Source: Oribacterium sinus
GTDB lineage: Bacteria > Bacillota > Clostridia > Lachnospirales > Lachnospiraceae
Assembly: GCF_014202695.1 (NCBI RefSeq)
Contig: NZ_JACHHH010000011.1
Coordinates: 1 to 64,000 of the forward strand
Length of the DNA stretch: 64,000 bases
Direction: 5' to 3'
The notes below the pieces were generated by a model, which did not search any database, had not been told where the DNA came from, and saw nothing but the letters and a program-made list of their open reading frames with translations. The translations under genes were made by a program, and so were the position numbers. This document shows, in pieces, positions 14,463-32,864 of the stretch (position 1 is the stretch's first letter; each line of letters opens with the position of its first letter).

Positions 14463-14535
14463 AGCTGATGACGGGAATCGGACCCGTGACCTCCGCACTA
14501 CCAATGCGACGCACTACCGACTGTGCTACATCAGC
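14463..14535 (-). tRNA. tRNA-Thr (anticodon GGU)
   Basis: Cloverleaf on the minus strand. Acceptor stem GCTGATG/CATCAGC, D-arm GCAC/GTGC, anticodon stem TCGCA/TGCGG with loop TTGGTAG (anticodon GGT, reads ACC/ACU), T-stem ACGGG/CCCGT, discriminator T at 14463. The 3' CCA is not encoded. The T-loop reads TCCGATT, so the nearly universal U55 (pseudouridine site) is C. This could be a functional variant or a decaying copy. Confidence 0.85.
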
Positions 14536-15532: not shown

Positions 15533-16753
15533 TTATCGGATTCCGTACCTCTCCAGGATATAATCCATATCCTTATCTCCTCTTCCGGAAAGGTTGATGA
15601 GGATAGAGCCCTTATTCATCTGCTTTGCCAGCTTCATACCGTAGGCCACCGCGTGGGAGCTTTCAATGGCAGGGATGATTCCCTCCATTCTGGAAAGGGT
15701 GAAGAAGGCATCAATGGTTTCGTCGTCATTGACCACATCGTACTTCACTCTGCCAAGGTCATGTAAGAAGGCATGCTCAGGGCCGGAAGAGGGGTAGTCC
15801 AAACCGCTGGCAACAGAATATACCGGTGCAGGTTCACCCTTTTCGTCCTTTAACATAATACTGTTAAAGCCGTGCATAACACCTTCTTCTCCATAGGTAA
15901 GGCTGGCTGCATGGTCCCCAAGAGCTGTTCCTCTGCCCAAAGGCTCCACACCGTAGATGGTCACAGGATCATTTAAGAAGCCGGAGAAAAGTCCCATAGC
16001 ATTGGAACCGCCGCCCACGCAGGCTACGATGGCATCCGGCAGTTCTCCCGTCATTTCCAGGAACTGCTCTCTGGCTTCGATGCCCACAATACTCTGAAAA
16101 TCTCTTACCATCATGGGGAAAGGGTGGGGGCCAACCACGGAGCCGATGCAGTAGATGGCATCCTTATACTCCTTCATATACGCGGCAAATGCAGCATCCA
16201 CCGCCTCTTTCAGAGTCGCCAAGCCTTCCTTAACCTCCACCACTCTTGCTCCCAGAATCTTCATTCTGGCTACATTAGGTGCCTGCTTCTTGATGTCCAC
16301 AGCCCCCATGTAAATGTCACATTCCATACCGAAGTAGGCTGCTGCGGTAGCTAAAGCTACACCGTGCTGTCCTGCACCGGTCTCCGCAATCACCTTTGTC
16401 TTCCCCATGTACTTCGCCAAAAGCACCTCGCCCATGCAGTGATTTAACTTATGGGCACCGGTATGATTTAAATCCTCACGCTTTACATAAAGCTGTACCC
16501 CGGTGTTAATCTTCTCGGAGAGTCTTTCCAAATGAGAAATGGGTGTAGGTCTACCCTGAAATTCCTTACGGATTCTTCTTAGCTCCGCAATAAACTTTCT
16601 GGACTTGGAAATGGTTTCATAGGCATGGTTAATTTCCTCCATAGCCTTCTTTAATTCCTCGGGGATATAGGCTCCACCATACTTTCCGAAATAGCCATTG
16701 GCATCCGGGTAGTTCTTAAAGTAAGTTTCAAAATCCACATTGTTCAGCTGCAT
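15533..16753 (-). CDS. trpB: Tryptophan synthase beta chain
   Basis: Joins indole and serine to give tryptophan with pyridoxal phosphate (406 residues, normal length). Visible landmarks are [18 protein letters not shown] near 90-107, with the Schiff-base lysine in GAHKLNH, the phosphate-binding [12 protein letters not shown], and the C-terminal [12 protein letters not shown]. The gene stands alone: trpA and the rest of the trp operon are not adjacent, so it may use external or TrpA-derived indole. AGGAGG lies 8 nt before the ATG. A Trp-specific T-box (16965-17265) precedes it, with an unusual structured insert in between, so expression should rise when charged tRNA-Trp is scarce. Confidence 0.97.
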
Positions 16754-29128: not shown

Positions 29129-30529
29129 ATGAACGAAGAAGAGAGAGTTTTACAGGATTACCAGCAGGAAATTCTGGATATTTTGCGGGGGCCGGATGAT
29201 CCCGCGGTAAAGAAAGAGCGTTTGGAAGACTACCATGCCAATGATATGGCCTCCTGTCTTCCTGAGCTGACAAAAGAAGAACGGGAAGTTTTCTATTCCT
29301 TATTGGATATGGAAAGCCTTGCGGAAATGATGGAATATGCAGAGGATGCAGGGCAATATCTGGAGGAAATGGATGCGCAAAAGGCTGCTGACATTCTGGT
29401 AAAGATGGAGCCGGATGATGCGGTTGACCTTTTAAAGGAGACCGAGCCGGATATCAAGAAGGCTTGGATTTCTCGCATGCCTCTGGAGAATCGAAAAGAA
29501 TTGCAGTCCTTGGCATCCTATAGCGAGGACTTGATTGGTTCCCGTATGACCACTAATTTCGTTTCCCTGGAAAGCAATCTAAACATCCGGGAAGCTATGC
29601 GTTCCTTGATTGATCAGGCTGCAGAGCATGACAATATTTCCACTCTTTATGTGGTGGATGAAAATGAATCCTATTACGGTGCTGTGGATTTAAAGGATAT
29701 CATTATCGCCAGAAAGGATACCAAGCTTGAGGACATTACCGAAACCGCCTACCCCTTTGTCTATGCGGATGAACGGATTGAGGATTGCTTGGAAAATATC
29801 AAGGCTTACTCCGAAAACTCTATTCCGGTACTGGGAGAGGACAAGGAAATTCTCGGTGTTATCACTGCTCAGGATATCTTAGAGGTTTCCGATGACGAGA
29901 TGGCGGAAGACTACGCTAAGTTGGGAGGTCTTTCTGCAGAAGAGGATTTAAATGAGCCCATTCGAGATAGTGTAAAGAAACGTCTTCCCTGGCTGATTAT
30001 GCTTTTGTTCCTGGGACTTTTGGTTTCCACCGTAGTGGGACTTTTTGAAACCGTGGTGGCTCAGCTCACCATCGTTATGGCCTTCCAATCCCTGATTTTG
30101 GATATGGCGGGAAATGTAGGAACCCAGTCTCTTGCGGTAACCATCCGTGTCTTAATGGATGAGCAACTAAAGGCCGGCGACAAGCTGAAGCTGATTGTAA
30201 AGGAAATGAGTATCGGCGGCATTAATGGTTTGGTTCTGGGATTTTTCTCCTTGGTGGGAATCGGGGCTTATATCTACTTCTTTAAACACATGCCCCTCCA
30301 TGTCTCCATCGGAATTGCCTTCTGTATCGGCATTTCCCTATTACTGGCTATGGTCATCTCCTCCTTTGTGGGAACCATCGTCCCCATCTTCTTTAAGAAG
30401 ATCGGCGTAGACCCGGCAGCAGCCTCCGGTCCATTGATTACCACCATCAATGACCTGGTGGGAGTGGTAAGCTACTATGGACTGACATGGCTATTAATTT
30501 TAGAGATTATGCAGATTAAGGTTGCATAA
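29129..30529 (+). CDS. mgtE: Magnesium transporter MgtE
   Basis: A 466-residue Mg2+ channel. The N-terminal superhelical domain (about 20-130) is followed by paired CBS domains (about 135-260; GSRMTTNFVSLESN, YAYPFVYADERIEDCLENI-like second repeat) that sense intracellular Mg2+, a plug helix, and five membrane helices (about 285-466). Pore signatures are NVGTQSLAV and ASGPLITTINDLVG, keeping the pore aspartate. GGAAGGAG lies 6 nt before the ATG. Its leader has a possible regulatory peptide and hairpin, and its 3' region carries the first 103-bp-core element within a giant palindrome with a T-run, likely its terminator. Confidence 0.95.
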   Translation: MNEEERVLQDYQQEILDILRGPDDPAVKKERLEDYHANDMASCLPELTKEEREVFYSLLDMESLAEMMEYAEDAGQYLEEMDAQKAADILVKMEPDDAVDLLKETEPDIKKAWISRMPLENRKELQSLASYSEDLIGSRMTTNFVSLESNLNIREAMRSLIDQAAEHDNISTLYVVDENESYYGAVDLKDIIIARKDTKLEDITETAYPFVYADERIEDCLENIKAYSENSIPVLGEDKEILGVITAQDILEVSDDEMAEDYAKLGGLSAEEDLNEPIRDSVKKRLPWLIMLLFLGLLVSTVVGLFETVVAQLTIVMAFQSLILDMAGNVGTQSLAVTIRVLMDEQLKAGDKLKLIVKEMSIGGINGLVLGFFSLVGIGAYIYFFKHMPLHVSIGIAFCIGISLLLAMVISSFVGTIVPIFFKKIGVDPAAASGPLITTINDLVGVVSYYGLTWLLILEIMQIKVA

Positions 30530-30531
30530 TG

Positions 30532-30771
30532 AAAAATAAAAAGAAGAATAGAGATTAAAAGATATATATTCCTGCTTTTCCGCAGTATAGCTTTGTACAC
30601 GGGGCACGCTCCCGCTAACTTCGCCTTCGTAAGGGTACTAAGCTTCAAGCTTCGTTTCACTCGCTTTCAGCAAGTACCCACGGGCTCAGATTACCCCGTA
30701 TCACAAAGCTATACTGCGGAAAAGCTTATAAGAAAACTCTTCTTTAATCTCCATTCTTCTTTTTTATTTTT
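30532..30771 (+). repeat. Large palindromic element, copy 1 (103-bp core)
   Basis: Three nested layers. Outer purine/pyrimidine arms (30532-30562 with 30741-30771, nearly complementary). A perfect 23-bp stem (30574-30596 with 30703-30725). A 103-bp core at 30598-30700 that begins CACGGGG, ends CCCCGTA, and contains GGGTACT/AGTACCC. The core is identical to the reverse complement of 30963-31065. It starts just after the mgtE stop codon; T-rich sequence ends it, so it may also terminate transcription. Confidence 0.9.
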
Positions 30772-30899
30772 CCCCAAAACAGAAACAAGCAAGTCTTAAT
30801 AAGTAAGAAAAGGCGGCTTATAAGACAAAACATATCGATGAAAACAGCTCTATCCCCTTATAAATCAAGGGCATAGAGCGGTTTAATGTTTTTACAGAT

Positions 30900-31122
30900 G
30901 GAGACGGATAGAATGTAAAACAAAAAATAATCCGTGTGCGTATACGCAATATAGGTCTGTAATACGGGGTAATCTGAGCCCGTGGGTACTTGCTGAAAGC
31001 GAGTGAAACGAAGCTTGAAGCTTAGTACCCTTACGAAGGCGAAGTTAGCGGGAGCGTGCCCCGTGTTCAGACCTATACTGTGGATACGCAAAAAACTTTA
31101 TGTGTTATCTCTATCCTTCTCT
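30900..31122 (-). repeat. Large palindromic element, copy 2 (103-bp core, inverted)
   Basis: Core 30963-31065 is the exact reverse complement of 30598-30700. Flanking arms 30937-30959 and 31068-31090 differ from copy 1 but still pair with each other (TATAGGTCTG with CAGACCTATA), a compensatory pattern. The outer minus-strand segment GAAGGATAGAGATA overlaps the aroE stop codon and resembles GAAGAATAGAGATT of copy 1. Both copies lie in sense orientation 3' of a gene. Confidence 0.88.
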
Positions 31123-32037
31123 TTCTTTGACCTTTGATTCCAAAAGGGCATAGACCTCCCCTTCCGGAAAGTCTTTTCCTGTCCATAGCCGGAAGGACTC
31201 CGCCCCTTGATAAAAGAGCATGGGTAAGCCGTTCATATAAGATAATCCCTGTTCCTTTGCCTGCTGTAAAAGCTTCGTTTCCAAGGGATGGTAAATGCAG
31301 TCTGCTACAAATAGTCCCTTATGAAGCCAGCGACTTTCCTCTACCAGGGAACGGTTCTCTTTCATACCTACAGAGCTGGCATTCACCAGGATATCACTGT
31401 TCCCACAGGCTTCTTCCAAATCCCTTTCCAGACTTTTTAAGAAAATCCTTCTTCCGGACTCCTTTTCACAACGTTCTACAAAATCCTCATACTTTCCCTT
31501 GCTTTCTTCTCGCACCAGCACTTCTATTTCCGAAAGTTCCGTACCGATGCCATAGCTAAGGATGGCCTTTCCGGCACCGCCCAGCCCCAATAGGCTTAGC
31601 TTCTTTCCTTTTAAAGCAAGTCTCTTTGCTTCCAAGCCCCGAAAGAAGCCTTTACCATCAGTACTATGTCCCTCAATTTCTCCATTTTCCCGGAAAACCA
31701 AGGTATTTACCGAATGGGCAAGTCTTGCTTCCCTGGAAATGCTGTCACAAAGGGGAATCACCGCCTCCTTTAAGGGCATGGTGAGATTACAGCCCTGCAG
31801 CTTCATTTTCCGAAAAACGGGTAATGCGCCCGGTAAATCCTCCTTTTGTAAATCAAAGGCAAGATAGCGGGCATTGATTCCCAACAAGCGGAAGGCTTCG
31901 TTATGCATGGCAGGAGAAAGGCTATGCTCCACAGGACTGCCCAAAAGGCCGAAAAGTCCGGTTCTTCCGTCAATTTCCCAACATTTTTCTTCTCTACAAG
32001 CGCTCATTGGCCCTACTTTCTTTTCCTCCCTCTTCAT
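31111..32037 (-). CDS. aroE: Shikimate dehydrogenase
   Basis: Reduces 3-dehydroshikimate to shikimate with NADPH in aromatic amino acid synthesis (308 residues). Substrate-site motifs: GLLGSPVEHSLSPAMHN, NLTMPLKEAV with the catalytic lysine, HSVNTLVF and GHSTDGKGF. The Rossmann motif is LGLGGAGKAI. NASSVGM and the C-terminal MLFYQGAESFRLWTG follow. ATG 32037 lacks a strong ribosome site; ATG 32007 is an alternative. It is the last gene of a cysS-mrnC-rlmB-yoaK-aroE row, and its stop codon is embedded in repeat element copy 2. The 110-bp spacer before it consists of TTATCTTGC-like quasi-repeats. Confidence 0.93.
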   Translation of the reverse strand: MKREEKKVGPMSACREEKCWEIDGRTGLFGLLGSPVEHSLSPAMHNEAFRLLGINARYLAFDLQKEDLPGALPVFRKMKLQGCNLTMPLKEAVIPLCDSISREARLAHSVNTLVFRENGEIEGHSTDGKGFFRGLEAKRLALKGKKLSLLGLGGAGKAILSYGIGTELSEIEVLVREESKGKYEDFVERCEKESGRRIFLKSLERDLEEACGNSDILVNASSVGMKENRSLVEESRWLHKGLFVADCIYHPLETKLLQQAKEQGLSYMNGLPMLFYQGAESFRLWTGKDFPEGEVYALLESKVKEREG

Positions 32038-32147
32038 TCTATCTTTTTTGTACTTCCTTTATCTTCTATCTTCTTTTATCTCGTTTTATATCTTGCTTTA
32101 TCTTGCTTTATCTTCTTCGTTCGTCCTTTATCTTTTTAGCTCTTCTT

Positions 32148-32864
32148 TTATCTGCCTTGTTCTTCCTTTAGCTTTTTTGCTCTCTCTTCATAGCTTTTAT
32201 TGTCAAAATGCAGTTTGCCCCAGAGAAAGAGATGCAATATCGTCATTCCGAAAATGCAGTAAAGTCCGAAAACCTTTGACAAAAGCACCGCCGCCAAAAC
32301 ACCGGAAGCGAAGGCAAGAATCATCAGGCCGTGTCTCTTCGCAAGGCGTGCGGATTCTTCATTTTTGAAAAATAAGGCTTGGGTAAGATGACTTCCCATT
32401 TGTCGGATATGGTTGGTGCAGAAGGTGGTGGCCATGGGAATGCCCTCCGCTTTTCGGAAAATATTGAACTGCATGGCACAGATAAAGCTTAAGCTTAATT
32501 GACATAACTGATCCGGCCAACTCGCCGGCATCAGCCCCACAAGGAAGCAAACCAGCGACTCAAAAAGGAGAATTTTCTCTTCAAAATCTCTCTTCTTTAG
32601 ATTTTTATGGTTTTGCCCAATATACTCCGATAAAATCACACCTAGCATATAGGCGGTAAAGGGAGCCAAAGAATACAGGGCTCTCCCCCATTTTCCCTTT
32701 CCCAAAGACAACATCATGATGACAAGATTGGCTGTCTGGGCATTGGCAAATACCTGTCCTCGTAGGCTATAAGTATATCCACCATAAAAGCCCCCCGAAA
32801 ATATCAGGAGGGCAAAAAACCAAAGCTTTTCATGAATTTTCCAGGTTGCCTTAACTTTATCCAT
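32148..32864 (-). CDS. YoaK/DUF1275 family membrane protein
   Basis: A 238-residue membrane protein with six or so hydrophobic helices (about 14-34, 45-60, 65-85, 100-118, 180-200, 203-222). Features of the YoaK/DUF1275 family include GGFYGGYTY, NAQTANLVIMMLSLG and MQFNIFRKAEGIPMATTFCTNHIRQMG (split here only for reading). No function is established for the family; a small-molecule transport role is often supposed. It overlaps the 3' end of rlmB by 8 nt, indicating translational coupling. Confidence 0.82.
   Translation of the reverse strand: MDKVKATWKIHEKLWFFALLIFSGGFYGGYTYSLRGQVFANAQTANLVIMMLSLGKGKWGRALYSLAPFTAYMLGVILSEYIGQNHKNLKKRDFEEKILLFESLVCFLVGLMPASWPDQLCQLSLSFICAMQFNIFRKAEGIPMATTFCTNHIRQMGSHLTQALFFKNEESARLAKRHGLMILAFASGVLAAVLLSKVFGLYCIFGMTILHLFLWGKLHFDNKSYEERAKKLKEEQGR

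Follow-up and report, generated by a model that had tools for sequence, protein, structure and literature searches.

The REP sequences and REPINs, together with the RAYT (TnpA-REP) transposases, offer a ready parallel for the element described here. These are many-copy extragenic hairpins that lie at gene ends, form inverted doublets of a fixed polarity, and display strand-specific loop and mismatch features; REP hairpins also bear a tag of the GTAG/CGTC type at their foot. Our element is likewise multi-copy, extragenic, located near gene ends, and found in inverted doublets of one polarity. It differs, however, in that its core, about 95 nt long, contains a three-way junction, its long arms are free in sequence, most of its copies are single, and no RAYT tracks it. 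No constant GTAG/CGTC-type tag is seen by eye at the foot of its hairpin, and with neither the tag nor a tracking RAYT, it is not a REP by membership. The BOX elements of the pneumococcus, which are modular hairpin repeats with a variable number of inner units, provide another parallel; the present element is also a modular hairpin repeat, but its layers are concentric, one lying inside the tip of another. The nearest published kind that we found is that of the “mobile/repeat sequence candidates,” of which a survey of 50 genomes counts 250 (PMC11109978); in its main text, the authors leave open whether candidates such as MRSC-65-2 act as RNA or DNA. As described there, MRSC-65-2 shares with our element multiple copies, an orientation inconsistent with that of genes, and a covarying long stem; it is, however, a single stem with a UYCCGG repeat found in diverse phyla, whereas our element combines a three-way junction with a GNRA mini-hairpin and is restricted to one family. 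The element is set apart from the main-text descriptions of that survey but may be among the 250. A survey of candidate RNAs from the human microbiome (PMC8040213) classes 250 of 3161 as palindromic and draws a comparison of these with REPs and terminators; its main text contains neither “Lachnospir-” nor “Roseburia.” Our search of the literature recovered these two surveys as near in kind and no description of the family itself.

The window analyzed here is the whole stretch of 64,000 nt, in which mgtE (MgtE by Pfam; 29129..30529, plus strand) and aroE (shikimate dehydrogenase, AroE by Pfam; 31111..32037, minus strand) converge on a gap holding two large hairpins, whose identical 103-bp cores lie in opposite orientation. 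The first-pass annotation had described these cores as exact reverse complements, each set in its own paired arms, and both direct reading and a repeat search confirm this. The cores (30598..30700, plus strand, in copy 1 and 30963..31065, minus strand, in copy 2) show 100% identity across 103 bases on opposite strands in a DNA search of the genome, and they lie within an inverted pair of 170 nt (30556-30725 and 30938-31107) that is 88% complementary overall. As delimited by covariance models, copy 1 spans 30572..30726, with its forward core on the plus strand and its GNRA-bearing strand being the minus strand (132.9 bits and an E value of 7.6e-30 in the window with the broader model, R2; 161.1 bits with R1), and copy 2 spans 30937..31091, with its forward core on the minus strand (R2, 121.6 bits, E value of 4.3e-27). 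The inner arms, P1, recovered by the repeat search, were earlier given as perfect over 23 bp in copy 1, which is what we find (30574..30596 with 30703..30725, plus strand; 23 of 23 paired), and as pairing at about 19 of 23 positions in copy 2, for which we count 20 of 23, or 87% (30937..30959 with 31068..31090, minus strand). The repeat search and the fold also reveal an outer arm in copy 1 (plus strand), the 5' side of which (30532..30559) begins just past the mgtE stop, as the first-pass annotation had it, and pairs at 89% with a T-rich 3' side (30743..30770). Copy 2 had been said to overlap the aroE stop, but its model-defined end at 31091 falls about 20 nt short of that stop at 31111, which is reached only when the outer pairing is extended, as in the fold of 30900-31120. 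The mini-hairpin P2 lies at 30608..30615 in copy 1 and at 31048..31055 in copy 2, and reads GC-GGGA-GC, with a GNRA-type loop, on the minus strand in the former and on the plus strand in the latter. Both folds beat 200 of 200 shuffles (z of -12.1 for copy 1 and -8.1 for copy 2). A scan of 30450-31200 for intrinsic terminators with short loops (a GC-rich stem, a loop of 3 to 8 nt and a T run) returned none. After the window pair, the closest core match in the genome is 91% identical, and the members of other close pairs are no more alike than random copies, save for two same-strand pairs (L339 and L350); hence, the two cores of the window doublet have probably been homogenized locally.

The core is not found only at this locus as a recent inversion, which the first-pass annotation had named as an outcome that would speak against it, since covariance models recover copies throughout the genome and the family. 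The window's own genome (G000) contains at least 40 near-full-length DNA matches to the core (40 of 140 candidates scored), and R1, a covariance model built from 30 own-genome core matches, yields at least 136 matches there at an E value of ≤1 (150 of 987 candidates scored). At an E value of ≤0.01, R1 has matches in 5 of 17 genomes of the genus, namely, 131 in G000, 58 in G009, 6 in G007, and 4 each in G005 and G001; the other 12 have none at this threshold, and the few, divergent copies of G001, G005, and G007 might be relics. Across the family, where 8 candidates were scored per genome and many genomes reach 8, R1 is positive in 103 of 397 sampled genomes and R2 in 165 of 397, spread over 145 of 334 genera. 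In a sample of the class, R2 is positive in 11 of 391 genomes, and all 11 belong to the same family; thus, false matches to the model are few. Among named genomes, a pattern scan recovered at least 118 stretches, with titles that are nearly all Lachnospiraceae or less precisely labeled Clostridia; it is on these titles that the naming of the sampled family is based. The named hosts among the matches listed include Eisenbergiella tayi, Roseburia inulinivorans, Butyrivibrio, Mediterraneibacter, and Blautia, and the odd titles among the stretches listed include Mogibacterium and two labeled Muribaculaceae, which may be binning errors. No match was found in PLSDB plasmids by a DNA search with the G000 core. 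The remark in the first-pass annotation that it recognized no named class is borne out by Rfam, which has no match at the element in the window (gathering threshold), in 17 loci (E value of ≤1), or in 18 further loci (gathering threshold), the Rfam matches in those loci falling outside it. The element belongs to a large, apparently unnamed family of mobile repeats restricted essentially to Lachnospiraceae. Members of this bacterial family are prominent in the guts and rumens of mammals. The repeat, which is present in about two-fifths of the sampled genomes and reaches a count of 131, shapes the regions between their genes as well as the 3' ends. The sole Rfam match in the window at the gathering threshold is a tRNA gene at 14463-14535 on the minus strand. 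In 3 of the 35 loci, Rfam recognizes a TwoAYGGAY RNA (RF01731; L108 1812-1977, L083 1252-1413, and L190 2266-2431), which is near the element in two loci, within about 170 nt and on the forward-core strand, and about 2.6 kb off in the third; this proximity is probably due to chance.

An alignment of 93 matches (A3), inspected by eye, points to a common architecture in which the P1 arms lead to a three-way junction with the mini-hairpin P2, followed by P3, a small bulge, the conserved P4, and a variable tip, P5. Beyond P4, we see by eye a conserved A.A mismatch with three varying pairs and, in many copies, a 2x2 loop. The core alone measures about 95 nt and the unit about 140 to 240 nt. All 93 rows were used for covariation, and as the alignment was fitted to R1 and is biased towards that structure, its 95.2% of pair cells with standard pairs has to be read against the 61.2% obtained with shuffled partners. 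The covariation score is 0.772 versus 0.179 in shuffles, none of 500 of which scores as high, and it drops to 0.120 or less when the 3' partner is slid by 1 to 3 columns. Two-sided changes occupy 1400 cells versus 395 in shuffles and affect 44 of 45 pairs; further pair types show no excess in A3 (144 versus 140.4 shuffled). The first-pass annotation had proposed a conserved core and had held that a lack of covariation across homologues would tell against it; the covariation supports the proposal. The P1 arms have a sequence specific to each locus, and yet their median pairing over 191 sites is 29 nt, versus 1 nt for mismatched partners. The fold is thus under constraint while the long arms vary freely in sequence, and since evolution has kept the fold despite this freedom, something must recognize it. 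Covariation by itself, being a matter of paired changes, does not discriminate RNA from DNA. It does supply a ready search model for other groups, and the conserved core set against freely changing paired arms constitutes a natural experiment on what a hairpin-recognizing enzyme reads.

Evidence for movement comes from several sides. In the seven genomes of one genus (g66), there are three clean full/empty orthologous sites (G438 versus G396, G396 versus G438, and G439 versus G436), the direction of which is not polarized, such that the “empty” sites may instead have lost an unstable palindrome by deletion. G000 and G009 carry units of about 200 nt at many loci, with nearly identical core and arms, that run from AGGGGCTGTA to TACAGCCCC and share an inverted repeat of about 23 nt; the outer ends of many of them show a GC-rich stem followed by T. 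Further, copies are nested concentrically. A strict count of half-cores gives at least two layers at 12 of 85 G000 sites and at least three at four of them; a 671-nt array, when folded, forms one nested hairpin (z of -11.8 versus 20 shuffles). Taking together the dispersal, the full/empty sites, the transposon-type ends, the self-nesting, and the covarying fold, we propose that the window holds a doublet of a Lachnospiraceae-specific, REP/REPIN-like, nonautonomous mobile repeat whose working form is a folded single strand, a reading to which we give about an even chance. This upholds one half of the first-pass guess, that of a mobile palindromic (MITE/REPIN-like) element, for which dispersal, mobility, and inverted doublets all speak, the core-to-core doublets being reminiscent of REP hairpins joined into REPINs. 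An enzyme supplied in trans would recognize one folded strand, either RNA or single-stranded DNA, by its conserved junction and core; the arms would need only to pair, so as to present the core, and copies would be tolerated near the 3' ends of genes. A bolder version, which we consider unlikely as a whole, is that of a family-wide class of bacterial mobile elements spreading via a folded RNA, in SINE-like fashion, or a folded single DNA strand. Here, the GNRA-capped three-way-junction core would be recognized, the arms would be generated or rewritten at each locus and yet stay paired, copies would invade the tips of earlier ones to give concentric hairpins, and whole hairpins would be turned in place.

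What speaks against the mobile-repeat reading is that no partner gene was found in the loci or in the genus profiles; nor did a RAYT-type partner emerge, the first-pass annotation having suggested looking for an associated transposase or RAYT. The most widespread cluster among the 909 ORFs of 146 loci occurs at 11 loci and resembles an ABC transporter. Seventeen of 68 ORF clusters span at least three loci, and no transposase or reverse transcriptase was seen in the first residues of one member each from the 25 of the 68 clusters listed. In the genus, Y1_Tnp is present in 9 of 17 genomes and RVT_1 in 11 of 17, neither of which tracks the element: copies occur in G005 and G007 despite the lack of Y1_Tnp, and in G005 and G001 despite the lack of RVT_1. 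The two Y1_Tnp genes of G000 (G000:C7:131842-132198 at L109 and G000:C2:351208-351564 at L110) look like IS200/IS605-type transposases, with short hairpin ends of their own that by eye are unlike the element. A thin candidate for the partner is a short tyrosine recombinase (176 to 212 aa) at 3 of 146 loci from different genomes (L230 1439-2078, L250 1-531, and L258 149-746); the Phage_integrase domain (PF00589) is found in the two members scanned, and in L230, the gene lies about 280 nt from the element. Tyrosine recombinases are capable of acting on single strands in folded form and of inverting DNA. Because the element is restricted to one family, a search for a trans-acting partner by phylogenetic profiling is tractable.

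The main rival to this reading, which we take seriously though we doubt it, is that the element is a structured noncoding RNA used by the host and spread to many loci, such as an mRNA 3'-end stabilizer, an RNase III substrate, or a small RNA, with the GNRA strand as the RNA. On the strand that the first-pass annotation considered “sense,” the P2 loop reads TCTC, TCCC, TTTC, TTGC, or TCGC. On the opposite strand, an automatic parse finds GNRA in 86 of 91 rows (GAGA in 38, GGGA in 19, GAAA in 15, GCAA in 9, and GCGA in 5); three others are GATA, all from one genome (G079), and L085 and L103 are misparsed, being GCGA and GAGA by eye. The loop and helix-wobble counts use 91 of the 93 rows, an opposite-strand match in L003 and a second match in L350 having been dropped. 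The 91-row loop count excludes L171-L288, which were fetched with a loop-limiting pattern, and an earlier count of 146 of 150 GNRA loops has been set aside. By eye, the 30 training rows of R1 hold only forms giving GAGA or GGGA, and yet other GNRA loops were recovered. The closing pairs of P2 are GC/GC in 82 rows, GT/AC in 5, and AC/GT in 3, and the 2x2 loop, by eye, is GA/GA on the GNRA strand. As it is there that the P2 loops are GNRA and the 2x2 loop is GA/GA, the evidence points to the folded strand being the one opposite to the “sense” strand of the first-pass annotation. A loop limited to GNRA, purine at position 3 included, is more in keeping with RNA than with DNA, whose stable loops conform to the broader GNNA. 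The two-sided changes at all but one of the pairs likewise favor a host RNA, as does the lean of arm G-U pairs to the GNRA strand (138 versus 85, at sites with at least 18 paired arm positions), although the two less related sets, taken by themselves, show it weakly (75 versus 57). Helix columns 34-37 lean the opposite way (33 versus 6), perhaps from misalignment, and wobbles are scarce on either strand (13 of 907 cells in P4 and 0 of 182 in P2). Such scarcity is unusual for RNA, and the arm excess is weak support for the GNRA strand; with the wobbles weak, conflicting, and rare, we leave the folded strand as either RNA or single-stranded DNA.

Placement by the 3' ends of genes also accords with a host RNA. 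Of 180 sites lying more than 400 nt from a locus end, 163 are between called ORFs and 17 inside one. Among gene gaps of at least 60 nt in the longer stretches, where an element-bearing gap is longer by nature, convergent gaps are enriched (22 of 96 with the element versus 31 of 311 without it; P = 0.0017), and divergent gaps show a mild depletion (P = 0.09). These and the following P values are indicative, since related copies are not independent and genes were called simply as the longest ORFs. In convergent gaps, the forward core is in sense with the nearer gene more often than with the farther one (44 versus 18; P = 0.0013), and in tandem gaps, sense copies lie nearer the 3' end (median of 30 versus 69 nt; P = 0.007). 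Of the earlier claim that the core is in sense orientation to the upstream gene, it is the milder convergent tendency that survives, as the GNRA signature is on the opposite strand and tandem gaps are evenly divided (44 sense versus 44 antisense). Near 3' ends, host transcripts would carry the other strand more often, which is awkward for a host RNA on the GNRA strand. The even orientation in tandem gaps and the copies that are turned round between species, at five of eight sites, argue against a fixed-strand 3'-UTR RNA, and the structured 3'-UTR RNA of the first-pass annotation is not supported as stated.

A second alternative, which we consider quite unlikely, is that of a REP/BIME-like DNA site, i.e., a cruciform or protein-binding palindrome with an architectural role, involving gyrase or a nucleoid protein, in which both strands fold. 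Such a site would be at ease with near-pure Watson-Crick pairing, indifference to orientation in tandem contexts, enrichment in convergent gaps, doublets, and hairpins turned round between related species. With respect to the last of these, eight shared sites were compared in g66. Three keep both orientation and arms (L309/L317, L319/L322, and L311/L314), with a paired change from A-T to G-C near the core seen by eye in L319/L322. In the other five, the copy is turned round relative to its flanks: in G438 versus G396 at the L107 site and at L310/L315, where the outer arms are still alike; in G439 versus G436 at L324/L321, where the arms are partly alike; and in G081 versus G396 at L306/L323 and L308/L320, where no arm homology is visible. 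At the last two sites, the G081 copies match the core profile weakly and in part (E values of 0.012 and 0.002) but are plain by eye. Turned-round, unlike copies may reflect inversion followed by fast divergence or independent insertions in the same gap. The doublets themselves sit less well with a DNA site. Of 24 pairs within 800 nt, 20 are forward-then-reverse (+-, core-to-core), none is -+, and 4 are same-strand, and this polarity, which a symmetric cruciform does not need, spans convergent, tandem, and divergent gene contexts. G000 neighbors within 3 kb comprise 13 +-, 2 -+, and 6 same-strand pairs, with no +- excess past 3 kb; most of the 383 element matches are single. Against a DNA site also stand the GNRA loop, which is present on one strand only, and the strong restriction to one family, which would be odd for the binding sites of universal proteins. 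No lagging-strand bias was seen by eye among the G009 matches listed, for which no origin is mapped.

It is very unlikely, in our estimate, that the element is an ordinary MITE family, i.e., internally deleted insertion sequences with the palindromic middle as a passenger. Like MITEs, it is noncoding and dispersed and has inverted ends, and one genome, that of “Clostridia bacterium B91_16” (CAJTEN), shows target duplications as well as terminal repeats. An 18-bp terminal repeat surrounds the core in five copies there; as judged by eye, four of the five have flanking direct repeats of 9 to 10 bp, and the flanks of the fifth (L195) are inverted. Two of these four duplications share the same flank and are therefore not independent. 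The shared inverted repeat of the G000/G009 units also recalls a MITE, but no target duplication is evident by eye in 28 G000/G009 copies with recognizable ends, several of which are inner nested layers; hence, the mechanism there is not standard cut-and-paste. Further, the hairpin feet, compared by eye, are AGGGGCTGTA in G000/G009 and CAATGTCATT in CAJTEN, and the arms are unrelated elsewhere, such that terminal inverted repeats are present in these two sets but are not conserved across genera. In contrast, the folded interior is conserved, with covariation in the core helices. As the ends are exchangeable between genera and the core fold is kept, it is the core rather than the ends that is the conserved unit.

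Least probable of all is that intrastrand template switching, by which palindromes are known to be corrected, keeps the arms complementary in place of selection, leaving covariation as no proof of a function for the fold; arms that are nearly pure Watson-Crick, often unique, and fast changing would suit it, but it accounts neither for the covarying two-pair P2 stem with its GNRA-limited loop, nor for the conserved unpaired columns, nor for a core fold that recurs across 145 of the 334 genera sampled. Returning to the mobile repeat, a purely selfish form of that reading has no explanation for arms staying paired in orthologous copies. In G396, similar cores carry unrelated arms; one arm has no other occurrence in the whole genome beyond chance-size matches of 14 to 17 bases, and the same holds for six arms compared with 167 kb. 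Thus, the arms are not simply carried with the core in this genome. In G009, two copies (L033 and L034) have identical cores with different arms; most near-identical cores in G000/G009 carry similar arms.

Two ideas on how arms and elements arise were considered and set aside. That the arms are inverted duplications of the target was suggested by G436 versus G440 at L107; such duplications are absent in the three clean full/empty pairs, and a slippage deletion explains G440. Insertion into the loops of preexisting terminators was not supported, as the empty sites lack such a hairpin and the arms at one site differ by species; the G000 units are still compatible with it. Where relatives carry the element, G436 (L294) has a small, different hairpin, of which G440 (L293) retains the right arm only. 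At L012 (1420-1500), a 27-nt arm sequence has two direct copies upstream of the core and a third, altered and inverted, on the downstream side, a possible trace of arm origin. In four JAAVAC contigs (L254, L185, L220, and L244) and in L108 and L355, a conserved tail of about CTACTGTGTATCGAAAGGCC follows the right arm and is unmirrored on the left; in the L254 doublet, tails of the CTACTGTGTATCGAAAGGCC type face one another. In G081 (L320), two copies at 16031 and 16755 have the same core and arms and lie about 720 nt apart with a seeming short ORF between them, an arrangement that looks like a small composite duplication. Lastly, beside the window doublet, the region around and upstream of the aroE start (32013-32184) contains a degenerate tandem repeat rich in TTTATCTT, with a spacing of mostly 20 nt.
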